Shown: piece after piece, positions 5,742 through 61,640 of the stretch
How positions within the stretch are numbered: position 1 is the stretch's first letter
How the letters are laid out: each line of letters starts with the position of its first letter
Origin: Heliopora coerulea
Taxonomy: Eukaryota; Cnidaria; Anthozoa; Scleralcyonacea; Helioporidae
Assembly: GCA_030142905.1 (NCBI GenBank)
Contig: JASJOG010000157.1
Location: 394,001 to 458,000, forward strand
Direction: 5' to 3'
Length of the DNA: 64,000 nt
Position numbers and translations under genes: made by a program
The notes under the pieces: generated by a model
What the model was told of the DNA's origin: nothing
The model's input: only the letters and a program-made list of their open reading frames with translations
Databases searched by the model: none

Positions 5742-6563
5742 TCAGTCTTCTGAAATGATCTTACGTTCAATCAGGAATCGTAAGAGAACAAGAACGAGCG
5801 CAAAAACGTTCTTGCTGATAAAAATTGCTGCGTCACGATCAAACTTAAACCACAGAACAAAACGCAGCACCAGGAAGCCGACATTCATGACTACTTGAAA
5901 AAAAGTATTGATACAAAATGTCCTCTTACGAAGCTTGGCGTCGGAACCGTCTTCTTCAAACTTAATTTGGAAGAGCTCTACAAAGGAGGTTAGAAAGAAT
6001 GCACAAACAAAACCCAGAATCGAGAACTTCATGGATTTTGGTACCGCATTACTTTGCATCGTTTTAGTTCCAGTCACGTTAGCTTCTAAGGTATTAGCTT
6101 CTCGTGCATCTTCTAGCAAAACCTCAAGCATCTCCATTCCATCGAAGAGGTCCAACGTTGCTGTGAAATACCGTTCAGTAAGAACATTAGCTTTGTCCGA
6201 AACTGAATTCAACAGCAGCAGCATCTCCGCTGGGGCAACACATAGCGTCGTCTTTAGTACATTCGATCCAAAAAAGATGTCGTTGTCGAGCTTGTTTTGT
6301 ATGACTATCTTACCAAATATGATGGCCACCATAACTGTTAACACAAAAGCATATAGAAGCCATACAAGCCAGAAACGCTGGATAAGAGTATCCCTACACA
6401 GAATTTTAGCCCATGCAATTAATATCGCGGCATGAAAAGCTAAAAGCCCGTAGTAGCCGTAATTTCCTTCGTACTGCACAGGATATTGTACCAACAAAGC
6501 CCCCTGAGCAACCAGAAAAACCCCGAAGAAAATTCTGCTGATACGTCGAAGCTTTAGCTCCAT
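5742..6563 (-). CDS. TMEM121-like multi-pass membrane protein, single exon
   Basis: A complete intronless ORF of 273 aa. Hydrophobic segments lie at roughly residues 9-28, 38-55, 64-88, 105-118, 180-200, 218-240 and 247-264, so it is a multi-pass membrane protein. It shows two blocks I associate with the TMEM121 family: a TATLDLFDGMEML-type block between the helix groups, and AAIFISKNVFALVLVLLRFL near the C-terminus (the family has AIF-x-KN-x-ALA there). Its length is close to that of TMEM121. The function of the family is poorly known. The ORF on the opposite strand (5908-6435) is a shadow. No enzyme motif or signal peptide is evident beyond the first helix. Confidence 0.65.
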   Translation of the reverse strand: MELKLRRISRIFFGVFLVAQGALLVQYPVQYEGNYGYYGLLAFHAAILIAWAKILCRDTLIQRFWLVWLLYAFVLTVMVAIIFGKIVIQNKLDNDIFFGSNVLKTTLCVAPAEMLLLLNSVSDKANVLTERYFTATLDLFDGMEMLEVLLEDAREANTLEANVTGTKTMQSNAVPKSMKFSILGFVCAFFLTSFVELFQIKFEEDGSDAKLRKRTFCINTFFQVVMNVGFLVLRFVLWFKFDRDAAIFISKNVFALVLVLLRFLIERKIISED

Positions 6564-8149
6564 CCTGTATGCGAAGACGAAGTAAACTATTCGCGGAATG
6601 ACGTCATTAGACTTTCTTAAGAATTTCCCAGAAGATAGAGTTGGAATTCCTAGTATCTAGGAAACATCCTGATGCTTTTACCCAGATCTCGTACGCCATA
6701 TACAAAGATTTATTATTTCCGTTCAATTTCCTTGTCGTTACTCTGTACATGTTGCATGTTTATTCGTTGGCTTGCCAAATGATTATCTTAAGAACTTGCT
6801 GTTTTCGGCCAAGTGACATGTTAATATTTCGTCTGAGGTCTTAACTACGGATTTACACGAGAAATATCAACTTACACTTGTAAATCATGGACAAGACCAT
6901 TTTGCTTCAAAGTCAAAACAAGTGAGATTAACATTACTTTTATTCTACCGTCCAGGCATATTAATTCTGATTTTAATGCAAGGTACATGGTGCCAAGCGA
7001 ATTCCTATGTAATCACTTATTAGTATCCGTGGTCGCTTGTATATGCCTCAGTATTCTGCTCATAGTTTCTCGTTATGTCACCGGCCTCCCAAGTTCCATA
7101 ATTTTCATAGCTGAAGATGTATAACACGAGAAGTTAAGAGACCTTTCTCTATACTATAACGTAGAGGGAGACGTTATTACGCATTATGCAAGAGCGTACT
7201 CAAGCCTTAAATCCTAGGCTTAGAAATTACAAAAGAGAATTTACTTACATCTTAAATCAGCTGTTGAAAACTTCAAATATAATCAAATTTTAATCAAAGT
7301 GCTTGCACGTGGATGAGAAGAAAAGGGTAAGCGTTTGGATTGTTGGTGATAATACAGCGACATTTTAATTGTGTATATATAGAGGTGAACAAGCCTTCCC
7401 AATAGGGCAAGCTCTTTTTGCCGAGATCTCGCCTACTTGTGAAATCCCTTGTAACATTTGTTTTCGTTTACATGACAGGAGGGCCAGCAGTCCAAGGAGA
7501 GATCTCGAAATTGACTACCCGAGATCCCGCCAAGAAAGCCTGGAAATCAGTGCTTCTACTTTGCTAGAACGAAATTTCCTCCTTTTAGCCTGATATTTCC
7601 GTTTTCAATTCAAAATTTCCTTCAAATTTCCTTCACAATTTAACGTAAAATTAACGATGTCTTTCGCGTTGAAATCGACGAATCATTGCTCTGTCGCGTT
7701 GGATCGAGGCAGGGTTTGGTCCTGGAAGGCTATGAATGAAGCTGTTTACCAGTGCGTGATGATTTTTGGGAATAGACGAGCTCAAGGCATTGAACTTTGA
7801 AAAGATTGAAACAATACCTGGAAACTGTATTTTGAAACCATCGTGGAGGCTGACATGTAGGTCAATTTGCAGGTCATCCCAGTCCCCTACGAGATAAAAC
7901 ACACAACCTGTTTTGAAAAACTTGACCCAAATTTCGGATTTTTTTGACAGTTTTCTTTTTTATTCTTCGTAAGTAGAGGAAAATGTCGGTAGGATTGCAT
8001 ATTTGTCAGAATAAACTGTCAACAAAAAGTAAAGGTTCAATACAATTTTTTTCCACGCGTGTTTTTGACCTACATGGCTGCCCCCATGTCGGCTTCATTC
8101 AATTGTGAAGCCTGGTACTACGGGGTTATCGTTTCAGTCTTCTTAGAGT
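6564..8149. other. Intergenic stretch, probable promoter side of the TMEM121-like gene
   Basis: No supported gene. Short ORFs here lack domain motifs. Near 7600-7640 there is a run of AATTTCCTTCAAATTTCC-like units that also appears near 12500-12560 and, inverted, near 36240-36360, so it is a dispersed simple motif. Confidence 0.45.
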
Positions 8150-37991: not shown

Positions 37992-39542
37992 ACGCTTTCC
38001 GTCCGGAAAATCAATAGCCATGAATATGCCTCGTTTCAGTTCCACAGCACTACGACCGGCCTTGATCAGAGCTAGTCGAGCAATGATTTGTTAATTCTAA
38101 CAAAGAAGTTTCTTCTTGTCAAAGTTGAAGCACTGATAGAGGTAAGCAAAGCACAACATTTCACAGAATTAAAGCGCTGGATTATTGTAAGTAAGTGAAT
38201 TCTTCCTGCTCCTCAGTTTGTGTACAGTCAGTTTGGCTAAATGTAGCTAATATTTAAGGAAAAATTATCCAAGACTGTCCGTTCGTATCCTAAAGCTTAA
38301 AAAGCAGGACGTAGGATTGATATACTCTTAAACGTATGAGTGATTGTGGGAAAAAGTTAACCATTTCGCTGACCTCAAGGTGAAATCACATTTGGCAATG
38401 TTGATACTATAGCCACTGTTTTAATGATACTAATCATTACCCAAACTCTAACCTTAATCGTAGTCCTTTTTAAATCTCATTGTCTTAACTTTAGAGCAAT
38501 TTTAAATCGAACATTCCTCTTCAGAATTCAAATGAAATGTCAGTGTGGGCCCAACTAAATAACGTTTTCTAAGACAGTGTAGACAAGGAATGAATCCGTG
38601 TATGTTTCTACCAGACTGCAAAGTTTTGCTTGTAAGGGAAACAAGTTTTCTCCCCGATTTCCAAATTTATCTGCTTTGTGTGTTTTCAGGGCAATTTGAA
38701 ATTTTCTTGCTAAATTTTTGTTTGTTGACGAGTTCACGTTCTATGGATTGCCTGATTGTTTACCTCTACAAATAAATAAATTTCCTAAATCTGTCGTGAC
38801 CCTTCGCTTATTTGGACATCAATGACTAGACACTGTTGTTCGAAACCATTACATTTTCCTCATTTAAGAATGCCTTTAAAATGCAGGAAATCTTAGTGCA
38901 TGATATAATTGATGGTATTGAAAAGTGTGGTGGCTGTAGATTTGACCACAATGCTTTGAAAAATGAAATAATTCTAATGGCAAACAAAGAATGTTCAAAA
39001 TGACATAGAGGTATGTTATTATGAATACAGGTAAAAACCTTTGAACCAAGTTTAAGCTTTTTAGAATCATTCCTTTCATACAATATACTGTAATATCATT
39101 TACATGTACATGAAATAAGTGCAAAGGAGTAAGGTTTATTGTATAAGTGCCTGTCTATTGGTATAGTAAATTATCTCATATGATTCTTTGTCATGGACTG
39201 TTTGATGACTGAGTGACATACATGTACATTGGCATAGGTAGGATTTTCCTAAGAGGGGAGGGGGGATCATGCACTCACTATGGGCTCACAGCAGGCTACA
39301 AGTGCTAAAGGGCCAGTTATTTGGCATGACCTTGCTCTGGGTTAACTCTTGTGACATAAAGTATTCAAAAGGAAAGATCCCTTTTGGTAAATAATAACGA
39401 GTATGTCAATACATGTCTAAATTTTTAGTGCTGCATAGTAAGTGCAGAGAAGGCCATGGCACCGTTTCACCCCCCTATAAATACATGTATGTGCCAGCCA
39501 GTGTATATGAACAATATTATTGACTATAATTTTTAACATGTA

Positions 39543-41134
39543 CAGGTGTGCTCATAAGTTATTGGACAACCTGTTTTTTACAGATACAGTACGTAATGGA
39601 TGCTCCAGGAGGAGGACATTGACTTTTCTCGTAACAGAATTTGAATCTTATTTAGAAAAAAATATCTTTTATTGTTAGTTTCGATATAAATGGCTACATA
39701 TAATAGCATACACTTTTGATTATGCACATGCACACAACATAAGACACACTTCAACCAGTATTTCGTGTGCCCGCCTCTGGCCTGAATTACAGCCTCTAAG
39801 CGTCTTGGCATTGAAGCGATGTACTTAAGAAGATCATCAGTGGGATAGTTGTCCCATACTTCTTTAATTTTTTTAAACAAGTCATCAGCGCTAGAAAGAA
39901 GCGGCTTGTCTAACAGTGCCTTTTCGATTGTCCACCAGATGTTCTCTAGAGGATTCAAATCGGGGGATTGGGCAGGATGGTCCAGCACATCGAAATCATT
40001 TTGCTCTAGAAAATCACAATTTTTTTTAGCGGTGTGGACAGGCACATTGTCTTGCATAAAAATAAAAAATTTCCTCCCACCCTGGTGTGTCATGTTGGGT
40101 GCCATTTGGTGCCCCAGAATGTGGTAATAAACCTCTGCATCAACCTTTCCTTCTATCCTTTTGAGTTTTCCTATCCCACCAGCACCGCTTACTCAGCCCC
40201 ATACCATTATTTTTCCTCCTCAATGTTTGACAGTGGGTTTCAGACACTCCTTTCTAAACTCTTCACCTGGTCATCGTCACACATACAGTTTACCACAGTT
40301 TGGAAAAATTATAAAACTGCTTTCATCTGACCACATGACTTTGTTCCACTCCTCAGTTGTCCAGTCCTTCTTTGACAAAGTGTACAACAAACATGCTTGT
40401 GCATTAGTCTCGCTTATCAATGGCTTTTTACGTGCTACCCATCCATTAAGATTAGCATTACCCAAATGCCTCTTGATGGTAGACAAAGACAACTCTGTTC
40501 CTTCTTGTATAAGATACCGTCTGAGCTGAGGAGCAGTTTTAAATCTGTCCCGTTCACTTGATCACACTAAGGCTCGGTCTTGCCTTGGTGTGGTTTTCCT
40601 TGGCTGTCCCGTTCGTCTGTCGTTCTGTTCTGCCATACTTCCTGTCTCCCTATACTTCACCCATAGATTTGATACAGTGGAAGGACTGCCCTTGCATCGT
40701 GAAGAAATCTGTCTGTTGCTCAACTGACCTTCTTACTTTAATAAAATAACCCACCACTTGGTCTCCTCTGTTAAACATTTCCCAGCTGCAGTCTTCTTCA
40801 CATCTTTCTTGAGTTCCTTGGCTAGATCATCTTGTGCACTAAGTTGAAATTCGTCTGATTTTTTGAAATATTTAAATCAAACATGCAACTGCTTTATTGT
40901 GGGAGGTCAACGAATAAAAACAGTAGGACAGATGTGCATTATTTGAACTGTCCCACAATTGGAAAGCTATAGTATTGAGCTATAAAGTATTACAGTAAAA
41001 CATTATTGGAATGAAGTTTACCGTATCAAGTTCAAATCCTAAGATGAAAAAAACGTTGTTTGCTGTTCCTAGAGCTTGCATAAGGGAATATATCTGTAAA
41101 AAACAGGGTGTCTAATAACTTATGAGCACACCTG
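39543..41134 (-). mobile_element. Tc1/mariner element, full length, TA target duplication
   Basis: Inverted ends CAGGTGTGCTCATAAGTTAT and ATAACTTATGAGCACACCTG, each flanked by TA. Length 1592 bp. The second direct-repeat copy has an uninterrupted site (AACAGGTAGAAC near 63922), confirming both ends. It carries one minus-strand transposase gene, now broken. Confidence 0.93.
39578..40860 (-). pseudogene. Tc1 transposase, broken
   Basis: On the minus strand the blocks occur in transposase order. First come the helix-turn-helix remnants CKGSPSTVSNLWVKYRETGS and GQPRKTTPRQDRAL, then RRYLIQEGTELSLSTIKRHL and KDWTTEEWNKVMWSDESSF (first catalytic Asp). KFFIFMQDNVPVHTAKK (second Asp) and AQSPDLNPLENIWWTIEK (DDE triad end) follow. 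The first half ends in a frameshift after FPNCGKLYV; in-frame stops interrupt the IMVWG-VSGAGG region and the linker. The last 175 codons read openly. It cannot make a full transposase. Confidence 0.9.
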
Positions 41135-41191
41135 TAGAACAGTCAAAATTTTCAAAAGTCATGTCCTCAGACTTCCTGTCCAGATGAACTT

Positions 41192-42332
41192 ATTTGCCAC
41201 ACAAGAATTTTACCAACATTTCAAATTTTCTGTGTTGAAATAAAATTTTTTAACAGACTGGTGTTTCTGCCACATCACAGGGACACAGGAGCTATTTACT
41301 ATTATAATAATAATTTGTTTTATAACCAAAACTCCTTTTAAGCTTGTATGACATGATGCATGTCTCTGATGTCTTTCAACATTGGGATAGATCAAACCAG
41401 TGACATAACCAGAGAATGTGTGATACCCAGATATGGGAAGCACACTAATTAGAGGGGCCAGGGGCATCCTCCCCTGGAAAATCTTTGTATTCTTGGGTCT
41501 TTGAAAGGGTATTTCCTGCATTTTGAGGGCACCATTGTTGTATTTTAGGCTGCAGTGTCAATATTGTCTGATTGACTTCAAATTTTTAGTGACTGATTCA
41601 GAAAATTTGTGTCAATGACTGCCTGATGAGAGGGAGGAAAGCCAGCTAGGTGACAAAAGCATGTATTTTTCAGTTGAATATACTATAGATGTTTTGGGAA
41701 ATGCCCATGTTCGAGCTGATGCCCAGGCCTGGGCCAAGTCTGACTGCACTGCTGAATCAAGAACATGGCCTAAGAGGCTGCAGCTCTGTCAGAAGCCCAT
41801 TCATGTCTATCCATAATGAAATGCCAGAAATATTGAATTACATATAAAATACTGTACTGTAAAGTAACAGCTGTTTGAATTACATCTAATGTCACACCTG
41901 GTTGGTTTCTGAGAATGGCTTATACCAGGGTTTACAGGGAGGAGGTAGACTACTGTTGAGACACCTGGTTTTTGGAGGATTGCACATGTAAGGTCTTTAG
42001 TTTTCATCCAGTTGTGGCCCACTTTAAGATTGGAGAGCTTGGATTTCAGGTAATTTGAAGGAACTGTTGATGTTTGTGGGTTCATGGCTGAGTTTATGGA
42101 TTCTTTAAATCATTGTGTGGTTAAAAGTACTAGTTGTTGTCCAAGATCTTTACAGTGTTTCAACTGAATGCACAGCATTTTAATCAACAATAGTCTGCTC
42201 TTTTCCTGTTTTTTGTATGTCCATTTTTACTACCAGTTGATGTTCCCTCTGTTCAATTGTTCCAGTGTGCATTTTGTTTTGCCTATAATCTATTATGTTT
42301 GTTGATTCTCAGTTGATTATTTGCACCATATA
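41192..42332. other. Intergenic stretch
   Basis: No supported gene. A fragment near 41400-41510 (GACATAACCAGAGAATGTGT, GGGGCCAGGGGCATCCTCCC) looks like a MITE end of the G/C-rich type seen elsewhere in the window. Confidence 0.4.
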
Positions 42333-43005
42333 CACAGGCAGTCAAAAAGAACTGCTCACCAACAGGGCTGATAGTGATATTAAATAACATTATCACAGAA
42401 CACCAAAACACTAAAGATAAGACTTGAAACTATAAATGAGGAAAAATTTAATAGTTTGTGGGCCCTCCTCTGGCCTTGATGACAGCTTTTCTTCTGCTAG
42501 ACATGCTGTCGATTAAATTAACTAAGAGTTTGCATGGAAATCCTTCCCAGGTAGCATTGACAGCTGTCCATAGTTCTTTCTCATTTATCAGTTGCTGTTT
42601 CTTCAAGATGTCACTGACACTTCTTTGACTGCAGCCCACTGCTCAAACAGCAATCTCTCTTTGTGAGTAGCCTTCCTCTGATAATGCAAGCACCTTCCCA
42701 TGATTTTCAAGACTTATCCTTGGTTTTGGACCCATAATCTTTGCACCTGGCCTGAGGTTCTCGCTGTACCAATTGTTCGAAGTGATGTTCTGCTAAATTC
42801 AGAAAAGACCACACCTTCCCTTGAAAACTGCTTAAAATGGCAACAAATCCTTATGAAAATTGGGGAATATGCCTGTGGGAAACATGTGGGAAATAAAGTG
42901 TTCTGGCATTGAGGTTAACTACAGTCTTTGGTGCTGGTTGTGAGCAATGGTAATCCTTCACTATTCAAAAAGTTGAGCTTGAGCAGTTCTTTTTGACTGC
43001 CTGTG
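42333..43005 (-). mobile_element. Internally deleted Tc1/mariner derivative
   Basis: The inverted ends CACAGGCAGTCAAAAAGAAC and GTTCTTTTTGACTGCCTGTG are flanked by TA; the element is 673 bp. The minus strand encodes transposase pieces only: GPKPRISLENHGKVLALSEE and SQREIA (helix-turn-helix region), VGCSQRSVSDILKK, then directly NEKELWTAVNATWEGFP and LIDSMSSRRKAVIKARGG (extreme C-terminus). The catalytic DDE core is absent. The ends differ from those of the Tc1 element at 39543, so it belongs to another subfamily. Confidence 0.88.
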
Positions 43006-44914
43006 TACAACATTGTTTTGATGCTTTAGTAGGATGGGGTCTATGGATTTGGTAAGGAGTTTGCAGATTGTTGAATGATGTAGTTGTGGGAACCTGTACC
43101 ATGAATGTCATGGTTTTGCTGTGTTCTGCAGTTTTGGGAGTTGTAATTTCAAGTCTGGATCATTGCTGCCCTGAAATGGGATGATGCAGACAGCTTTTAT
43201 GACATGTTATTGCACAATTAACAAACTTGGTATGTTCCTTGTTGTACATAGGTACTGGTAACGTCAAACACTTCAACTGGATATTACAGCAAATACTTAC
43301 AGTAGCTTGTCAAGACAATTTTGTCACTTCACATCCAGTTGTGAGGTCATATTCTCATTATGAGAACCTCTAAGTAAAGTATTCCCCGGTTGAAGCATTT
43401 CATAAGTCATAGTGGAAGGGAATGCTATCATCCAAGTAATTATATTGTAGAATTGTAGGGCCGCCTCTAAATCATTTAGTCCAAAAAAATTAAGCTCTGT
43501 TAACCTGAAAATTAAAATAGCTTACAACTTTGATGAAACAATGAAGTTAACACTCTAAAGTCATTGCAAGTTTGTGCACTCTGGATGCTTTGCAGATTTC
43601 CTTTGTGATTTGGCTGACAAAACAATCTTGGCCTACTGGAAAGGTTAATAGTCAATAACTGACCTTGAGATGGGGATAATAAAAAGTGTTGTTACTGCAT
43701 TTAAAATAATAAAAGAATTTTATAAATTTTATTATGATACTTGGTCCCTCTCAAATGTCTTTTATTTCTGTGGCCAATGCATCTTTGATTAAGATTTTGC
43801 TCAATTTGTGCTTTGCCTCTCTGCGTTGCTTCGGAGGTTGATTTTATTATCATTTGTTGGGAATGCCTCGTGCACTGCTGCCAACACAATGTAGTTGTCA
43901 CAATTTTCTTAGATAATACACTGCACTCACTTCGATAGGCCAGAACCGTTTGTATTATAATTGAATGTTCTTGCGTAATGTTCCTTATCACTTGTTACAT
44001 TTGAGTTATGATTAAACCGACAATTTATCACATTGGTACATGTAGGCCAGAAGTGAAAAAACATCTGTTGAAAATATAAGGGGAAAAGCTCAGCAGCTTT
44101 TCATGTTGAACGTAATTATGAAGTTACTAATCAGGTATTTAAAATCTTCAAAAGAGCAACAGTGTTGTTAGCTGGGACAACAAATCCGGGCATTTTATTT
44201 AAGAAATGACGTAAGAAAAGGAATACGTTTTAGAATACGTATTACGTATTAATTAAATACGTTTTACTTTTTTATTCTTTTAAGTGTTTGTTTGATATAT
44301 TCTAATTCTTGTTTTAAACGATGAATAAGATATTCCAATAATTAAATGCCAAATTAAGCAATGTAAGTTTTACCGATATTTTCGTTGAATATATATGGAT
44401 TTGCTTGTATAATACTAATTGATTTTTTTCCCTTAGTGATTTGTAGTTTTGTAATCTGTACTTAATAGACACGCCCTATTGGGAGATGAACTGCTTTGTA
44501 AATATTTTATTCTATATTCGTGAAATAGGGTGGTGGGTAAATAGTTAAATTCATAACAATGATAAATATTACTGGTAATAATAATGAAAAAAAAGCTTCC
44601 ATGAAGCTCACTCCAGCAAAGGCTCTTCGTTCGAAACGTCACTTTCTTGTCAAGTAAGTTTTGGGAGTTTCCTGAACTATTGGGCTTTCTACGTTTTTGA
44701 GTTACCTTGTCCCGTGGCTTGAACTCTATCCTGGCGGCTTTTCAGTATTTTAATCAATCATAGGCTAGATGATATTACTCGTCAATGGGAGAGCTGCAGT
44801 CACAATAGGGCTAAAAGCTATCCCACAAACTCTTTCATGACATTGGTGATCTTTTGGTTAAAGAAGTGCCTTTATTTAAATTGAATAGTTCAATCAGCTA
44901 GCTAAGCAGTTCTA
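43006..44914. other. Intergenic region upstream of the kinase gene
   Basis: No supported gene. Near 44580-44650 there is a CTCTTCGTTCGAAACGTCAC motif and a GAAGCTCACTCCAGCAAAGG block of the kind found at Penelope termini, but no RT. Any 5' exon of the kinase gene could lie here; I could not identify one. Confidence 0.4.
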
Positions 44915-45075
44915 CCTAGAGGTCCAGTAAGTGCCACCCTTCATGGGTTCAGTGTTACTACACGGGGAAACCTGAGTACCCATAGAAAACCTGCGATACT
45001 TGGTGGAGTCAAACTGGACAATTTTACTCGTCTTTGAGGAGGACGACCATCAGGAAAGACTAAAATGAGGGGTCG
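44915..45075 (-). repeat. tRNA-derived SINE body, copy A3
   Basis: GTTCTACCTAGAGGTCCAG, TTCAGTGTTACTACACGGGG, AAACCTGCGATACTTGGTGG and AGTCAAACTGGACAATTTTA match the other copies. The tRNA head is lost. It lies about 240 bases before the kinase ORF. Confidence 0.65.
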
Positions 45076-45314
45076 TGCTAACCTTTCATGTGAAAATTAG
45101 ATTTGATCTAAATCCAAACAATGGCTCATTTTTATGGGAATAGTTTAACCCCTACAGGTCTCTTTCTAGAGCAATCGAATAAGAACAAAGGGAAATGGCT
45201 CAGAGGTCTCAAATCTTATGCACGATAGGGTCAAATGCAAGACCTTACTGGGCTAACAATCTATATGACGTATAATGAGCTTGAGACGTCCGGTTCATAT
45301 CTAACCTATGCCGT

Positions 45315-46251
45315 ATGTTTTATAGAAATATTGATGCTGGCCATTTTTTATACATGATGGAACAAATGGAGAAATTTAAAAAGTATAGAGAAAAGTTAAA
45401 GTTGCTTAAATCAAAAACTGACGTTGAAATTGTAGGACCTGTAAAAACGTCATTCGCTACTGATGATTTTATGATCGGCCAAGGAAGCTTCGGTACTACC
45501 GTTTTTCTTGGGTTGGATGATAATGACAATCCTGTAGCCGTCAAACGTATCTTAACTCAAACAGCTGCATGTTTAGTAAAAGTCGAAAAGGAGGCGAAAC
45601 TCTTGGACTTACTGCAACTAAATAGATCAAAACATATTGTCAGTTATCGGCACTTCGAAAGTGGGAATCCTTTCTCGTATCTCATTCTTGACCTTTGTGA
45701 GGAAGACTTAGCAGATTTTGTGATGAGTAATAGCAAAGATTATCTTCAACGTCAGGGTCCAGTTATCATCAAAGAAATTTTGACTGGATTACGTGCATTG
45801 CACTCTGGAGCAAAAAAAATTCTTCATATGGATTTAAAACCTGAGAATATCCTTGTTGACTGTGATGGTCACATGCGTCTGGCTGACTTTGGACTCAGTC
45901 GAATATTAGACAGAGATCAGACAAGTCTTCAGACGGGTAGCAAGGGAACACCAGGATGGATGGCGGCTGAATCTCTCCCGAAACAAGGAGAAAAGCCACG
46001 GTTCAAGAGAAAGTCAGATATTCAAGTCGTTGGCATGATCAGCTTTTATGTTCTTACGCAAGGTTTACATCCATTTGGGGATGTCAATCATCGCACTGCT
46101 AATATTCACGATGGTAAACCGGTTGATTTAAAGGAATATTTGAACAATTCCGCTGCGAGAGAATTCATATCTTGGCTGATTCAGCATGACCCAAAAGACA
46201 GACCATATGTGGAAGATGCACTTGAACATCCTTATGTGAAGTGGAACCCGG
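45315..46251 (+). CDS. Kinase exon (IRE1/RNase L-like)
   Basis: The glycine loop GQGSFGTTV is at residues 55-63, VAVK lysine at 77, ILHMDLKPENIL at 169-180 and LADFGLS at 189-195. GTPGWMAAESL takes the place of the APE segment and KSDIQVVGMISFYVLTQGLH follows. That last string and the GW-MAAE pattern are hallmarks of the IRE1/RNase L group. The HRD arginine is methionine (HMD); the catalytic Asp, Asn, DFG and Lys are kept, so phosphotransfer is plausible. The N-terminal 45 residues are Lys-rich and may be coiled coil. An acceptor-like TTTATAG at 45319-45325 suggests this could be an internal exon. Confidence 0.9.
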
Positions 46252-46561
46252 GTACTAACATTTCGCTATTAACATAGTATTAAATAAAATGCGTTGTACT
46301 GTAAGTACGTAAACTTAGTCGACGTTTAGTTTTAAAAATTACTACAAGTTATTAAACAGAGATGGAGGTAGAGGCAGAGGCAAGGACACAGACTGGGAAA
46401 GAGACAGGAACAAAACTTGTGACATGAACAGGAGCAGAGGGAGAGAGGGAGAGGGAAAGGGAAAAGGAAAGCGAGAGAGAGAGGGAGGGACGGAGGGAGA
46501 GAGGGGGAGAGAGGGGGAGAGGGGGAAAGAGGGAGAGGGAGAGAGAGAGAGAGAGAAAGAG

Positions 46562-46594
<33 letters not shown>

Positions 46595-49297
46595 GAAGAG
46601 AGAGAAGAGAGAAAGACAAAGCTTTATTTAACTGCGGTGTTACATTAGTTTACTAATTGCTTTACATGAAAGCCGTATAAATGACTGTATTAAGTGATTA
46701 ACGTTGTAAATTACGTTATATTTTAATATATATACATATATATATTAATATATAACATAAAAACATATATGAAATATTATTACTATATCAATTATTGTTA
46801 CTATATTAAATACTAAGTATTATTACTATATTAAAATATTGATAAATCAAAGGTGACACCAACCATGGTTTACTGTTTTATGATTCCTAACAGAACTAAA
46901 ACGCGTCCAAGAAAATGATCGTTTAGCCGAACTGAATAGATCAGATGTCTCCGAAGCAGACCCAAGAACTCCAAGAAACCAGAATGATAAAGTAAGAATG
47001 CGGCTGATAAAAGTTGTAGTGGAATAAAATTGTTTGAGCAGTTTTTATATGTAGGTTGTAGGTTAACTACCAGTAGCTAATGTTACGTTTTTGCGAGGCC
47101 GCACCCACGTGATACGATTGTTGCAATGGGGTTGTTCGTTTTGACGTATCTGATTACTTCACTAGAGTTTCCTCAACGTATTGCTACATTGGTGAGCGAA
47201 TCAAAATTAGCAATTCCGTCCTTTAGACAAGATATCATACTTCAGGACGAATACACACACATAAGACAATCGTATTGTCCAAATGATGCCAAAGTGGACT
47301 ACTCTAGGCTATTCTTACGGCATATCCGACGTATAAAAAGTTGAAGTAAAATACTAAAATTCAAACGAAAGTGTTAGCCTAGCCACAACCGTAAAAGAGG
47401 CGAGGAAAACACAGATGATAAAAAAATGTAAAACTTAATAAAAGGGAAGTTGAAATCCAACCAACATTAACTGGACGTGAACCCTGAGTTCTCGCTGGAA
47501 TGGCCATCGCACTAGCCACCGTAAACTGCACAATCTAACCAAGCAGAATTATTTTTCGAGCGGAAAGCTACTTATCATGCTCCACACCCTAGCAAATATA
47601 CCTTACTAGTAGGCTTAGGAAGCATTTATGGCTATCCTTACGTCGCCATAACGTTCGTTAAAGCGTTATAACTATTTCGAAGAGAATTGTCTTATCTTGT
47701 TAAAGCCACTTCATTATTCTTTCACCGTAGACAATATGGGAACCAAAGACTGATGAAATTAAAACTGTGATTGGGAGTCGCATACCTGGTCGAACCATTC
47801 TTGATCGCTTACGTCTTCAATTTAAAAATGAAAAACGACCTGGTGGAGGTGGAATAACGTCCTCTAAAAGAAAATCAGCTCCCGCAAGGTTTCGTGATTC
47901 TGAAGGTGCGTGTACTACAACAGAAAAATCAGTGTGGTTAAACCTTGCGTTTGTGTCAAATCCCAAACCTGAAACCTTCACGTAACAAGAATCATGCTCT
48001 TGTTGACGTTCGCTGCTTCGTGTGCAGTTTTGTGTGTAGCATCAACGTAAAAAGCTCTTTTCATTCTTTCTCATTAATTTATTTGATATAAAAACTGGTG
48101 TATTTTTCTGTTTGAAGCCTTACAAGTACAGAACAGTGCCGTTGAATAGTTTTAGTCATAAGACAGGTGATACAGACATTTAGCGATGTGTGTCTAGAAA
48201 TACGGTTTTAGTTTGAATAGACTATAAGGAGTTCTCCAGAGGAAAATTTCAACATATCCTTGGTACGGTCAAAAAGATAACTTTGTGTGAGCTGTGTTGA
48301 ATCTAACGCACAAAACATTTCAGGTATTGACAGTATACGGCAAAAAGAGCCTGACGCTGTCCACTTGCATAAACACTAAGCTTAATTCTTCCCAGAAATT
48401 GCGTTAACGTATTTTTTAACTCCACTGATGTCTCTTAAACGGCCGCAAATTATGCCTGCTCTAAAACTAAAAATTTATCCCCCTTAATTTAATTTAGTTA
48501 ACTTTATTTTACGAGGGTAACTGATAATTGTTCTTACAAACTGAAAAACTACTGGCCCTCAAATTACACTACTATAGAGTAATATAAAAATATTAAGAGC
48601 CTAATATTCACATGGCCATAAATTACTTGAAATTTTTTTTTCTTTCATAACAGTTCCCTCACAGGTCCTACAGAAAACAAATATTGTTCGCCCTTCCATA
48701 ATGTTATACAGTCATAAAACCGAGGAAAATGTATTACTTAAAGTCTACCTAGCTGACATCACATCGCACACTTGTGACGTTATGGTAAATTTTGTGAATG
48801 GTGATTTACAACTGATTGGTCGTTTGGCATCAATGATTCTGGCCAAGGGAGGTCAGGAGATCCAACACGATTGCGACAAACGCCGAAAAAGTAATGGGCC
48901 TTTGAAACCTGGAGAGTGTTTCGTTGGAGTTCCAGGAAAGCTACCTTTTAAGTGTATCATTCACACTTCAAGACCGCGTTGGCACAGCGGTGACCAAGAT
49001 AGACAGAAGAAAGAATTAGAATTGGCATGTGAAAACATCTTTAAAAGTGCAAGGGATAGGAAAACAATTGCATTTACCGCCGTTGGTTGGTCAGTCGATG
49101 CATATCTTTGTGCTAACGTGATGGGAGAAGCTGCATTAAAATTTAGCGCCACGACCAGTAGCAAACATGCTTTACAAGAAATTCACTTTGTTGACAAAGA
49201 TCAAGTAACTGCGGCAGCCTTCGTAAACGAAATTATGAAAATGTTTAAATTGAAAGCGACATATGACGAGACTTACATACAACCAGAAGCAAAGTAA
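45315..49297 (+). CDS. IRE1/RNase L-like kinase joined to a macro domain (four-exon model)
   Basis: Exons 45315-46251, 46894-46991, 47731-47905 and 48654-49297 join with junction phases 1,0,1 into 1854 nt (617 aa) without a stop. Residues 50-310 are a protein kinase domain of the IRE1/RNase L type. Residues 313-419 form a basic linker; 420-617 are a macro domain. No KEN ribonuclease domain is present, unlike true IRE1. The second exon has no ATG and is open in only one frame, which demands an upstream exon ending in phase 1. The kinase exon offers such a donor (CCGG before GTACTA) just after the domain end. Against the fusion, the kinase ORF continues 8 codons to its own stop (46275) and an AATAAA follows at about 46285. 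Alternative termination or two separate genes remain possible. The true 5' start may also be upstream. Confidence 0.6.
46425..46620. repeat. GA-rich microsatellite
   Basis: Purine tract of GAGAGG, GGGAGA and GAAAGA units about 190 bp long, followed near 46720-46760 by an AT dinucleotide tract. Any ORF across it is an artefact. In intron 1 of the kinase-macro model. Confidence 0.9.
46894..46991 (+). CDS. Linker exon of the kinase-macro gene
   Basis: 98 nt from acceptor CCTAACAG to donor GTAAGA; 2 nt complete a split codon, then 32 codons beginning LKRVQENDRLAELNRS. Charged, no domain. Phase 0 out matches the next exon. Confidence 0.6.
47731..47905 (+). CDS. Linker exon 2 of the kinase-macro gene
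   Basis: 175 nt from acceptor CACCGTAG to donor GTGCGT. Encodes WEPKTDEIKTVIGSRIPGRT, then a basic GPxxG/Lys-rich stretch (NEKRPGGGGITSSKRKSAP). Phase 0 in, phase 1 out, matching the macro exon. Confidence 0.65.
48654..49297 (+). CDS. Macro domain exon
   Basis: From acceptor CATAACAG, 2 nt then codons to the TAA at 49295. Macro-domain pattern: VYLADITSHTCDVMVNFVNG, DLQLIG (where the usual GG is GR), AKGGQEIQHDCD, GPLKPGE, GKLPFKCIIHTSRPRW, IAFTAVGW and EIHFVDKDQ. The family binds ADP-ribose or removes it from proteins; the closest feel is the PARP9/14-type macro domains. The loss of one loop glycine leaves hydrolase activity doubtful. Confidence 0.88.
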
Positions 49298-51196
49298 AAT
49301 TCCATCTAAAACACTCTTTGCAGCCTTCTGCGATGGTGAGGATATTAAACAGGTGGTAGGAAGACTTTAAAAGTACGATTTACGCGATACGATTGTAGCA
49401 CACGGCTCCTTTCCCTGGCGTATGCGATTAAGTCTTAACAACACCATTCCTGCGTACGATTTGTTCGCAATGTTGCAACACTTCCCGCCGACACTTGTGA
49501 CTGAATTGTATACGTGAGAAAGATCACTTGCAACAATCGCACCGTGCTAATCAGCGCTTAAAGCATATGACTCGAAAGTTAAGTTTGGTTTATTTGAAGG
49601 AATATTTGAGTTGATAATTAGATGTGTTTACAGCTCTTCCATACCTCTTCTGAGAGTCCACAATAGGTTTTTCGGGACGAGGGTTAGCATTTATTTTGGT
49701 AACGAGAAACGAGATGTAAGGGAAAATAATGGATGAGATCCGGGATTTGAGAAAGCCGTAGGACGCGAAATTAACAAATATTATACATTCAAACTTCATT
49801 CTTGTTTCTTATTGGTCGACTTCACCAGTTGATTCTCAATGTCCGGTGTTACAGGAAATTTGTCCCCCTATAATTTTTATGCATAAATAGCTCATTTTGA
49901 GCTACCTCTGTCTGTTAACTTTGATAAAACATTAATGTTTTATTAATCAATGCTTTATCCGCATTTACAAATGTTGATCAAATATTCATTTCTTTTGAAT
50001 TTTCTTCATGAATTATTAATGAATTTGATAATTATTATTATTAGCAGTAGTGTTAGTATTATTAGTTTACTGTAATTATAATTACTAATACTGAACATTG
50101 GGCCAACTTAAACCTTTGAAATTAATTACATGTAATGGAACAAGTAGTACAATACTACTGTTCAACATACTCAGAATCCTTGCAATGTCACTGCCTGATG
50201 TCACTGACAAATATCCGCAAAATGCAGAGACATGTAAAAATGTAGAACATATTCCCAAAGTGTTTGACGTCAAATAAAATTTACCGTAAGAGACTGAGTT
50301 TCCATCTTCTTACAGTCAAAATGCAAGTTGCCATTTCATTCATACCATTTATAAGTGGTTTATTGACAACTAAAAACCTCATTTTTGCATCAAGTTGGGT
50401 TCTAGGTCACCAGCAGGGGGGGAAAGCCAAAATGTAAAAATGTTCCAAGCTTTGAATTGGCACGGTTTGGCGGGAAATTGATCTGGATAAACAATTGATC
50501 CATTGGACAAATGAAATAACAAAACAGTTTAACTGTGGAATATTTCTATAGGATCATTTCTATCGTTTTGGCTCTTCCTTGATACATGCTTATGATGATG
50601 TCATAAGCTTGCCTGATGTCATCCTCCCCCCCCCCCCCACCTTCTTTGCTGATAAAAACTAACAGCTCCTAAACTGAGTATACATTAAGAATTGGCTATG
50701 CTGTGCAAAGATTACAAAAACAAAAAAATGTTTGAGAAAGAGTTCCGTTAGGCCAGACCAAGTTGATTATGTGTCACTAGCATTTGTCCAACTCATCATG
50801 TTGTAAAGGAAATAAAACAAAAAATTACCTAAAACTCATGATTATTTTGGTCATGAGAGTAGAAAAAGCTAGCTTATCTCACCGAGGTAAAATCACTGAG
50901 TGGTGATAAACTGACACATGTTCTGCTTTGATACAGTGACAGATTTTATACCTAAACTATCTGAACAAAACATAATTAGACAGAAATTGCTGTAAAATCA
51001 GTATTCTCTATTCAGGATGGATGCTTTTGAAAGCAAGGGCCAAAGAAGGATAGAGATTTTTTGGTTTAGTTTTTTTCCAATCAAACAGCCAAACCAACTA
51101 TTCAAATTTAGGAAAGAATATATGCTGATCAAAATTGACTTGCTCTGGCCTATTAATTAAAAATAGCTCTTCAGTACATAAATGGGCTGAAACAGA
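49298..51196. other. Intergenic stretch
   Basis: No supported gene. AT-rich with ATTATTATTA tracts near 50025-50080 and a poly-C tract at about 50627-50638. The 3' end of the Harbinger element probably lies in its right part, but I could not fix a terminal repeat. Confidence 0.4.
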
Positions 51197-52508
51197 TCAG
51201 GATGAGGTTAATTGGTTTGGAAAGTGTTCCTTAATGTAGGCAGTTATAACATTTCTGACATGCTCTCCTTCTGCAGAATTGTATGAAAAAATTCTGTCTG
51301 GAGCAATGTTTGGTTGCACTTGCTTGTCATACTCCATTTGTCTTTGTAGGTGATCATCATCCAGCTTAATGTTATTGCTTTCACAAAAGTTATGAAGAAC
51401 AAAACATGCATAAATAATTTGTGAAACATTTTCCAACTTCATATCAATTGGCCTATTTCGGATCTGCCATCTTCCTTTCAAGCAGCCATAGGCAAATTCT
51501 ATCTGGTTTCTTGATGCTCTTAGTAAATTGTTAAACAATACTTGCTCATTTGTTGTGCAAGTTGTAAACTCCTTTATACAGTGAGGTAGTAAGCTATAAG
51601 CAGGATCTCCAAGTAGCAAAACTGGAACCTTGTCAAAACCTGGAAGACGTGATCTGTACAATACAGGAAGTGTACCATTTCTAAACATGCAATTAATACG
51701 CGAGTTGCTGAATACTTTAGCATCACGCACACTCCCTGGCCACCTGCAATCTACATCAATAAACTTCCCCTCGTAGTCACAGATTCCCTGCACGTTGAGA
51801 GTACTTCATTTTGTACGAAAAAAAATCATGAGAATTTTCTAAAGGCTGTTGAATAGGCATGGGTGTCCCATCTACACACCCAAATGTTTGGGGGAAACCA
51901 TGTTTAGATTCAAACTTTATAACAAGCTCTCTCATTTCTTCCTCGGCCTTGGGCAATCTAATATACTTTGGACCAAGAATTAAGCTCAAAGCTTGGCAGA
52001 CTTGGTTAACACTCACTGAAACTGTAGATGTGGCAATCCCAAAGGCATTAGCTGTCATACTCAAAGATCCCATATCTTTTAGACAATACAGAGTCAAAGC
52101 TAGCTTTTATTCGGCCGAAATGGCAGTTCTGTTTGATGATTTTGGATCTGGGGATATGTAAGGCCTCCGTTCCTCCAACAGCTTCATAAACAGCGGCCTA
52201 GTCATTCGCAGATTTGCAGACCATTCCTCCTCCATGAGGTGACCCTGCCACAAGTTTATCCACCATCGACCTGTCCTCCCTTGTTTCTTCCAATAAGCAC
52301 GAGCCTTTCGTAGGCCAGTACGCCTTCGTTTGGCACGGCAGATAAATTCATTTTGTGTCACTGAACATTGAGCGACCAGCATTTCCTGTTGATTTTGGAA
52401 TTGTAAAAGCAGCGCCATGAAAATGTCAGCAGCTATTGACAAAACTGCAGCCAAACTTGAAAGTAAAACTAGATGTTTACCACCATAGTTAATAGAAAGA
52501 GGAGACAT
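51197..52508 (-). pseudogene. PIF/Harbinger (HARBI1-like) transposase, one nonsense codon and one frameshift
   Basis: Minus strand from MSPLSINYGG (52506-52508) to a stop at 51197. It is colinear with HARBI1-type transposases: an N-terminal basic region, WSANLRMTRPLFMKLLEERR, a TLYCLKDMGSLSMTANAFGI helix-turn-helix, TFGCVDGTPMPI (first Asp), LLLGDPAYSLLP (second Asp) and RNQIEFAYGCLKGRW (Glu). The catalytic residues are all present. A TAA interrupts after RTAISAE (about 52107), and a short frameshift separates FFSYKMKYS from VQGICDYEG (about 51785). Otherwise the reading is clean, so inactivation is recent. It diverges from the C2H2 gene at 52666. Confidence 0.9.
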
Positions 52509-59354: not shown

Positions 59355-61640
59355 TTACTTTTGCTTCTTGCAGTCCTTACAATACCAGTTATTCTTAGGT
59401 ACAGTCTTCCTCTTTGGTCGTACACACGCCAAATGTATCCATCCATTGTGTGGACACTGAAGGCCATCACAACCAATCATAACCTCACTACCGTCCCATG
59501 GCCTCTTACAATAACAGTATATGTCCTCATCTGTTGCTGGATGTGTGGGTTTTTTAAAGCTTTCAACAGCCCTAGTGAGGAGTTCTCTTACAACATGTTT
59601 CTTCCAAAATGCTTCTAGCTTTGGAAGTAGCTCATCTAGAAAGTCTTGATCTTTGGGGATGTTACATGCAATAAACCCATCGTTAAGTTTTACTAGAAAC
59701 AGGCACTGGCCAATATCATATACTTCCATTTGAAGCTGGACCTGCGTGTAATATGTATGATCATTCCTCAATGTCCCTCCATAAACATAACTAGATTGAT
59801 CATTCCAAAACTCAGTGCATTTCATGTGGCGGGCTGAATAGGGACACTTTATTTCCACAACAAACTTCCCATGGCACTCGCATGTCACAATACCATCAGC
59901 TGTTGCTGACAGCCACGGCCTATTAGTGGCAACCTTCATTCCAGTTTTGTGTAGTCTGCCATTGACGTGTTCCTTCTGTACTTCCCTTTGAAAGAGTTCA
60001 AACACAACCTCTTCATTGTCTCTGCCATATTTTATTGATGCAGCATTGATCGGCTTTGCACTCATCGTGGTGATACCTTTGATAACTGACGGGGCCGGAT
60101 TGTCCTGGTTCGTCTTTGAAACAGTTTGTGCAAAGGAGGCTGTAATGTGGCCTGGGCGCTGTTCGTACCATACAGTGCTTTGGGACTGAGTACGTGTTTG
60201 TTCTTCAAGGAAGTCAACTTCGTCCACAGAAACTCTCAAGTCACTACACACTTGATCCACCTTCGATGACAACTCTTCTTCAGAAAGTCTTGCATTTTCC
60301 TCACTGTATAGCGCTCGAAGTGGCATTGGCAGCTTGACCACTGGCTTGACAACACGCCGACATCTAAATACCTCTGCTGTTTCACCAAAAAGTGATAACA
60401 CAACTGGTGCCGGTTCTTCTCCTACCAAACTTTGTAGAAACGAATGCTGATCCTCTCCTGACGATCCATTGATGTTGCTGGTGCTGCGCGGTTTTCTTGC
60501 ATTGGCGACGACACATGCCACTGCTTTATAGCCATAAAAGCAAATGTCCTTGATTCTTGCAGGCTGCACTTTGGACGTGAAGAAATTATTCCACTCGCAT
60601 GGCTTGCTGGTGCACATCATAGTGGTCACCCCCAACCGAACGGCCGCTTCAGTCATAAACAGTACTGCTGCAACGTGAGAACAGGATTCACCTAACCTGT
60701 GAAAAGAACAATACATAAATTTACAAAATAAAATTAGTATTGATACTAAAGTAAGTCAGGTGTAATGGTTTATTTTATATTTTGTAGAGAATGAGCCGCT
60801 GCCACAATTCTATTAAATTTTGAAAATGTTTTCTATAAAAAAATATATTGTTGGCCTTTCATCAATAGGAGGGAGGCAATTTATTTTATTGGGTGTGGCC
60901 TGATTGGCCTCAAGGTTTGCAAGATCTCTGCACTACAAAATATGCATTTATCTCTGGAATAAATTTTCTGAAATTCTTGGCATTACCCTGCCATGCAAGT
61001 ACAATGTCCAGCGAGAACTTCTCCATCCTTGTTAGTGGCAACCCATGGCTGGTGGCTTGGGTCATTGGCTCTCTGAGATGGTCGCACATCTGCTCTAAAA
61101 ACAATAGACTCATGTTCTGTGATGTGATGACGTACTGCACCGACGAAACCTGCAGTGAAGTAGCGATGTGCTTCAAGTGACCGGTAGTTTTTCATTGCCT
61201 CATGAGTATGGACTCCTGAAATGAACAAAATAATTGCCATGTAAACGTGTGTAAAATATAACCCGATCAATAGCCTTGTCCCCCACTTCACACCGCCAAA
61301 CGTGATATCTTGATTAGAAGAAACCCCATATTTTTTCTTATAATCCCAGTGAAATTTCTGTGTTTAATCACAGCTATAGTTTGTACACCAGAATAATTAC
61401 TGATACATAAACAAAATAAAATTTACTTTCACTTTGAAAAAACATGAAAAACTTACCTGCAGATGAGATCAAATACATAACAAGATCGGGAAATTGTACG
61501 TCTGGCCACTGCGTAGGTTCGTCTACCCAAGCATCTGCTGGTAGACGAAAGGGACATTCTCTCAGCCCTATTGCCGCTAGTTTCGCGTCATATCGCTTCC
61601 TAGCCTCGATAGAGAGACTGTCTATATAATTATATGACAT
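59355..61640 (-). CDS. SWIM-YqaJ-PHD protein of the ISL2EU element, three exons, intact
   Basis: Exons 61457-61640, 60987-61215 and 59355-60696 join in frame (1755 nt, 584 aa; junction phases 1 and 2). It starts MSYNYIDSLSIEARKRYD; an in-frame ATG at 61676 could add 12 residues. A SWIM zinc finger crosses junction 2 (GHCTCMAG joined to LGESCSHVAAVLF, CxCxnCxH). The middle part is a YqaJ/lambda-exonuclease-like domain: WYEQRPGHITAS, AASIKYGRDNEE, WLSATADGIV, FVVEIKCPYSARH, YYTQVQLQMEV. These contain the acidic D...E-x-K and Q residues of that nuclease fold. A C-terminal PHD finger follows (YCYCKRPWDG, MIGCDG, CPHNGWIHLACV, WYCKDC). Its likely role is processing DNA ends during transposition. 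There are no stops, in contrast to the partner transposase. Confidence 0.88.

Follow-up and report, generated by a model that had tools for sequence, protein, structure and literature searches.

A 64,000-nucleotide stretch of the octocoral Heliopora coerulea (assembly GCA_030142905.1, contig JASJOG010000157.1, positions 394,001 to 458,000; the window) was analyzed around positions 45315-49297, where an exon for a protein kinase of the IRE1/RNase L type is followed on the same strand by three exons for a PARP14-type RNA-recognition motif (RRM) and a macro domain. The four exons may encode one fused protein, a reading that we favor only tentatively and with less than even confidence. The genome comprised 429,824,877 bases in 769 contigs; the published Heliopora coerulea assembly, built from PacBio HiFi reads, has 429.9 Mb and 769 contigs (PMC10267220). 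The contig carrying the window, referred to as C65, holds three copies of the locus. Copy 1 lies in the window, and C65:438600-443400 corresponds to window positions 44600-49400. Coordinates without a contig name are window positions, and all exons described are on the forward strand (+).

Exons and domains of the locus

Four exons were identified at 45315-46251, 46894-46991, 47731-47905, and 48654-49297, and their AG/GT boundaries were checked base by base (exon 1 for its donor only and exon 4 for its acceptor only). Joined, they comprised 1854 nucleotides, corresponding to 617 sense codons followed by TAA, with junction phases of 1, 0, and 1. This confirmed that the exons are real, phase-compatible, and open over 617 codons without a stop, as had been stated in a preliminary description of this DNA made from its letters alone. 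Exon 2 is open solely in the frame requiring one upstream base; this frame begins at 46884 after an in-frame TGA, and no ATG lies between the TGA and the acceptor. Exon 2 thus has no start codon and requires an upstream exon with a phase-1 donor, which was also described correctly.

The kinase exon (45315-46251) begins at the ATG at 45315 or at an acceptor at 45325 and extends to a phase-1 GT. Its open reading frame (ORF) encodes a complete protein kinase domain (Pfam Pkinase, E 2.3e-41), and its best PDB matches were IRE1 (E 1.8e-32); the first 16 rows were all IRE1 at 116-110 bits, and the next kinase scored 77 bits. The assignment to the IRE1/RNase L type was therefore borne out, as was the absence of the KEN nuclease from this exon, since no match to PF06479 was found in the kinase ORF. 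The kinase may be catalytically active, because what we take to be its glycine loop, the lysine of VAVKR, HMD (replacing HRD), and DFG are present. A candidate first exon of the kinase gene, placed tentatively at 44601-44653, reads MKLTPAKALRSKRHFLV and ends with a phase-2 donor (CAA|GTAAGT) that scored 5.6 at the same site in all three copies; its phase, judged by eye, fits the AG at 45324-45325. Inspection by eye of the upstream ORFs of at least 110 amino acids in the window revealed no ankyrin or lumenal sensor, a survey that short exons could escape.

At least 134 PF00069 matches were found in this genome, many of them clustered (contigs C16, C25, C29, C200, and others), and 19 of the 20 paralogue loci chosen matched the window kinase, with L034 lying outside the family. 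In the search for KEN in the paralogue loci, L032 alone scored below E 1; a KEN-like stretch is located there within the same exon as the kinase. This stretch, delimited by eye, was used as the query against C65:384001-510000 and retrieved nothing better than E 4.6. At another paralogue locus (L030:6068-9001), a 978-amino-acid open frame with a P-loop-like stretch lies approximately 3.4 kb downstream of the kinase. It had no Pfam match at E 0.01 and, judged by eye, may resemble SAMD9-like proteins.

In the window, exon 2 (98 nucleotides) and exon 3 (175 nucleotides), read together with the start of exon 4, matched a PARP14 RRM weakly (16 bits, below the cut-off of 27; E 0.012). For the joined exons 3 and 4 of copy 3, the match to RRM_PARP14_3 reached 26.9 bits, above the Pfam cut-off of 24, and a unit of the module array in copy 2 matched a PARP14-type RRM with 24.7 bits against a cut-off of 24. 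An array unit also matched the PARP10 structure 2dhx with E 0.006. Exon 3 of copy 3 by itself had no RRM match. The splice between exons 3 and 4 is supported because the copy 3 match spans this junction. By these profile matches, exons 2 and 3 form most of a predicted PARP14-type RRM that is completed in exon 4, and they are not mere linkers. The preliminary description, which proposed a kinase followed by a macro domain, identified both of these domain types correctly but overlooked the RRM; because exons 2 and 3 and the start of exon 4 correspond to a PARP14-type RRM, the order would be kinase-RRM-macro.

Exon 4 (48654-49297) encodes the end of the RRM and then one macro domain (Pfam, E 1.1e-16) that is nearest to PARP14 macro domain 1, with the TAA stop right after it. 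No ART (ADP-ribosyltransferase) domain was found in exon 4, to which the search for ART was confined. In the alignment, loop 1 of the macro domain retains Asn but reads IGRLA for YGGLA, and in loop 2, SGVFGFP is replaced by the shorter GWSVDAY with loss of the glycines. Published criteria for macro hydrolases are Asn/Ser and Gly at loop 1 and a hydrophobic plus an aromatic residue in loop 2 (PMC10221186); relative to these, the macro domain has neither the motif of loop 2 nor one of the glycines of loop 1. Erasing of ADP-ribose appears unlikely, because loop 2 is shortened without its glycines and one loop 1 Gly is missing. A structure prediction of the macro domain (mean pLDDT of 47 from two sequences) was not used.

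Three copies, a module array, and fast change

The three kinase-RRM-macro copies on C65 have the same order and lie on one strand, copies 2 and 3 being outside the window. For copy 1 (38105-50500), matches were seen from 38105 onward up to at least 50500, where the query ended, with interruptions by insertions. Tc1/mariner-like transposase pieces, recognized by eye, occur at 39578-40561 (-) in a part of copy 1 unmatched in copies 2 and 3. In copy 2 (C65:460169-480933), a kinase with 97% DNA identity to that of copy 1 is followed by eight copies of exon 2 and eight of exon 3 and then by a macro exon. Its array (C65:461673-479550; loci L009, L010, and L012) contains several unit types, mostly of approximately 1.46 kb, with two lengthened by insertions. 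Copy 3 (C65:491589-497529) contains exons 2 and 3 once each and a macro exon, and its kinase is cut after 571 nucleotides into a GA tract; the matching GA-rich, low-complexity tract of the window lies in the presumed first intron (46365-46620, limits by eye). An assembly error is probably not the cause of this truncation, because P0148, a protein from another source with a copy-3-like kinase, also enters the GA repeat, without the frameshift of copy 3. The preliminary description missed the triplication and the RRM array just beyond the window.

Exons 2 and 3 are module exons, present in 10 copies each on C65 (window included). Splice sites and frame are kept in all 10 copies of exon 2 and in nine of exon 3, and the nine intact copies of exon 3 (175, 178, or 184 nucleotides) differ in length by multiples of three alone; exons 2 and 3 therefore exceed chance ORFs. 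A unit of exon 2 plus exon 3 has 273, 276, or 282 nucleotides (91, 92, or 94 codons) and can be added in frame, since it begins and ends in phase 1. A chance joining of random ORFs was also considered and was ruled out for exons 2-4, since these pieces are conserved, in frame, and of the spliced type.

Copy 1 has a 51-nucleotide in-frame gap relative to copies 2 and 3 (between 48682 and 48683), which takes away the last part of the RRM. This gap is absent from P0001, a protein of another assembly with 94% identity. In copy 2, the exon 3 adjoining the macro exon is a broken unit with a deletion and a stop, and the macro exon has an in-frame stop ahead of the macro domain.

The ratio of nonsynonymous to synonymous substitution rates (dN/dS) was 0.27 for the kinases of copies 1 and 2 and 0.33-0.63 for the macro exon copies. 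In the N-lobe of the kinase, private synonymous and nonsynonymous changes numbered 2 and 3 in copy 1, 2 and 1 in copy 2, and 2 and 10 in copy 3, and because of this last ratio, the copy 3 kinase looks to be under relaxed constraint. The corresponding numbers for the macro exon were 3 and 11 (copy 1) and 7 and 12 (copy 3). Between copies 1 and 3, exons 2-4 contained no stop and no frameshift. The alignable introns of the same copies had six indels in 1347 bp, five of which were not multiples of three, and at this rate approximately 3.4 frameshifts were expected in the 917 exon bases.

Exon 3 changed faster than its surroundings. Its nonsynonymous change was greater than the divergence of the flanking introns in 10 of 11 unit pairs (P from 2e-2 to 1e-8), with values of 0.21 vs 0.06 for A/B (P 2e-7), 0.29 vs 0.10 for B/W (P 5e-8), and 0.23 vs 0.09 for W/D (P 1e-5). 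The weakest of these pairs was A/W (P 0.02), and no excess was observed in the near-identical pair B/B2. In this comparison, all differences in nonsynonymous codons were counted and the site fraction was approximate. With units shared among them, the pairs are not independent, and part of the excess could stem from recombination with older modules. A parsimony codon test of the second part of exon 3 (dN/dS of 1.4-1.75, P 0.06-0.18) and a codon test of exon 2 (dN/dS of 2.4, P 0.19) were not significant. Diversifying change in the second part of the RRM is probable from these comparisons.

Possible joining of the kinase exon to exon 2

The ends of the kinase exons in relatives were surveyed using 111 newly listed proteins out of the best 120 of 860, of which 59 could be parsed; these relatives are not independent. 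A Gly was found as residue 3-6 past the domain end and was followed by a purine-first codon in 43 of the 59 (T in 13, K in 13, M in 7, N in 6, E in 3, and I in 1), after which came short variable tails. Such a pattern is donor-like, as expected for G|GTR read into an intron. In this genome, G|GT occurs in phase 1 at the kinase end of 11 of the 20 loci chosen (L016, L017, L018, L019, L021, L022, L023, L024, L028, L030, and L031), eight of them with GTAAG, and L020 has T|GT. A comparison of copies 1 and 2 showed differences at 20 of 760 positions in 45471-46230 and at 2 of 21 in 46231-46251; beyond the donor, there were differences at 6 of the 26 positions that start at 46252 and end with the stop, and at 10 of 73 past the stop. 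The family pattern and the drop in conservation around 46251 favor an exon end at this position.

Many observations weigh against the joining. The kinase ORF continues past the proposed donor into a read-through tail (46252-46288) with TAG at 46275-46277 and AATAAA at 46283-46288, which would be the gene end if the kinase stands alone. The copy 1 donor (CGG|GTACTA) scored -1.78 and ranked 17th of the 73 GT sites in 45320-46893 under a weight matrix not trained on Heliopora, and the copy 2 donor at the same place was also weak (0.42). The phase match alone is weak evidence, because five other phase-1 GTs of the kinase ORF scored above -2, the limit for the sites compared, and all of them exceeded the proposed donor of copy 1. 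The same holds for four small ATG start exons with phase-1 donors that could precede exon 2: 45065-45089 (MRGRANLS, CAT|GTGAAA, a weak candidate with -0.04 in all three copies), 46289-46304 (0.89 in copy 1 and -2.43 in copy 2), and 43181-43229 (2.26) and 39021-39030 (3.97), both present in copies 1 and 3. In copy 3, half of the kinase is missing together with the donor, but exons 2 and 3 and the macro exon have retained open frames, and the in-frame stops of copy 2, in its last exon 3 and its macro exon, fall between the array and the macro domain.

The relatives also supply counterevidence. Sixteen of the 59 parsed proteins were without the Gly pattern, including one KEN-bearing protein, several Dendronephthya gigantea proteins, and P0180 (NGM, which would fit); in P0177 (HGQ), an earlier Gly is followed by Gln, a misfit to the donor pattern. 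No RRM or macro relatives were found at E 0.01 in the 20 loci chosen, whose sequence reached approximately 6-7 kb past the kinase. The 10 D. gigantea ankyrin-kinase proteins selected from ankyrin-bearing hits all terminate 3-17 residues past the kinase. A check of proteins for the kinase-plus-macro order, as the preliminary description had suggested, found no macro domain among the best 120 of 1333 hits to the joined protein; this is weak evidence, because the database may hold few spliced octocoral proteins. No kinase-macro protein was noticed in the open-licence part of the literature. Overall, the claim that the kinase exon supplies a donor at its domain end is strengthened by the apparent conservation of this exon end in many octocoral relatives; the copy 1 donor itself is weak. 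The proposed fusion likewise retains the phases, the frame, and the exon-end pattern in its favor, against the weak donor, the alternative start exons, the broken kinase of copy 3, and the stops of copy 2.

A serious alternative, which we also regard as possible while placing it just after the fusion, is the joint duplication of two neighboring genes: the kinase gene would terminate at the TAG at 46275 and use the poly(A) signal behind it, and the RRM-macro gene would begin with a separate start exon upstream. The in-frame TAG and AATAAA directly past the kinase, the 10 D. gigantea proteins that stop at the kinase, the open RRM-macro frames beside the broken kinase of copy 3, the weak donors of copies 1 and 2, and the candidate start exons at 45065-45089 (all copies), 43181-43229, and 39021-39030 (copies 1 and 3) all agree with separate genes. 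However, the coding tail past 46251 is poorly kept (copies 1 and 2 differ at 6 of its 26 positions), the candidate start exons combine short length with weak or moderate donors, and most parsed relatives show the donor-like pattern at the kinase exon end.

It is improbable that the copies are decaying remnants of what was once a larger cluster of immune genes and that copy 1 has kept its 617-codon frame by chance, without making a stable product. Every copy does have a defect (the RRM-end gap, the two stops, and the truncated kinase, respectively), and the macro changes of copy 1 are predominantly nonsynonymous. Decay is, however, at odds with the low dN/dS of the kinase and macro exons, with the absence of stops and frameshifts in exons 2-4 between copies 1 and 3, and with P0001, in which the 51 nucleotides are present. 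A further alternative, that the kinase exon is mainly spliced to another downstream exon and the RRM-macro exons are an alternative 3' end of the same gene, would fit the paralogues in which a good donor is present but neither an RRM nor a macro domain was found in the DNA examined, and which would have to splice elsewhere; no such exon was identified, however, and exon 2 lies downstream in the window with a matching phase, which makes this alternative highly improbable.

Surroundings, proposed function, and related systems

Elsewhere in the window, a DDE_Tnp_4 transposase was found at 51197-51805 (-), with an adjoining frame to 52529 as its putative continuation. A YqaJ-type exonuclease domain with a PHD finger just below the cut-off, probably from a mobile element gene, was located at 59355-60755 (-), and a CECR6/TMEM121 family gene at 5742-6656 (-).

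If the fusion is correct, the triplicated octocoral locus would have a KEN-less IRE1/RNase L-type kinase exon spliced, through an exon end common to much of the kinase family, to a truncated PARP14-like gene. The latter part would consist of a modular, fast-changing RRM and one macro domain, with one module in copies 1 and 3 and eight (one broken) in copy 2, and the copy 1 product would be a kinase-RRM-macro protein. We infer that the RRM modules would bind a ligand that changes, the simplest candidate being foreign or marked RNA, and that ligand binding would gather the kinases for activation in trans, giving an RNA-sensing kinase with an immune role; the macro domain would serve as a non-catalytic reader or scaffold, not as an eraser. 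The fuller proposal, an invertebrate immune receptor in which a kinase has as its sensor diversifying PARP14-type RRM modules that are arrayed in tandem, can be expanded in frame, and end in a catalytically dead macro domain, is considered unlikely on the present evidence. Such a receptor would vary both in its number of modules (1 to 8 observed, with a single broken one among the 8) and in the second half of its RRM. It would couple RNA recognition to kinase output in a domain order of which the searches made here returned no description.

Among known systems, IRE1 and RNase L share the kinase domain, as shown by the best PDB matches. In these proteins, KEN follows the kinase, whereas the Heliopora exon is without KEN, has HMD for HRD, and has no lumenal part identified. 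The octocoral ankyrin-kinase family of D. gigantea, annotated as 2-5A-dependent ribonuclease-like and similar, has a kinase approximately 43-50% identical to that of the window. In ten of its proteins, ankyrin repeats are located at the N terminus and the kinase is the last domain, whereas no ankyrin ORF was recognized upstream in the window at the length surveyed; other D. gigantea hits among the best listed (e.g., P0013 and P0019) show the kinase only.

The remaining exons resemble the macroPARP proteins (PARP14/DTX3L/PARP9), in which a PARP14-type RRM is followed by a PARP14-macro1-type macro domain in the same order as in Heliopora. The Heliopora gene differs in having a single macro domain followed by a stop, no ART in exon 4, degraded loops, and possibly a kinase in front. 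PARP14 is described as fast-evolving, often duplicated, and antiviral (PMC13224862). If the kinase is joined, the locus would represent a new wiring of kinase signaling to the PARP14 arm of antiviral defense. Even if it is not joined, the RRM array, with its in-frame units, conserved splice phases, and excess of amino-acid change, offers a testable example of a cnidarian immune gene that binds RNA, is built from repeats, and diversifies.

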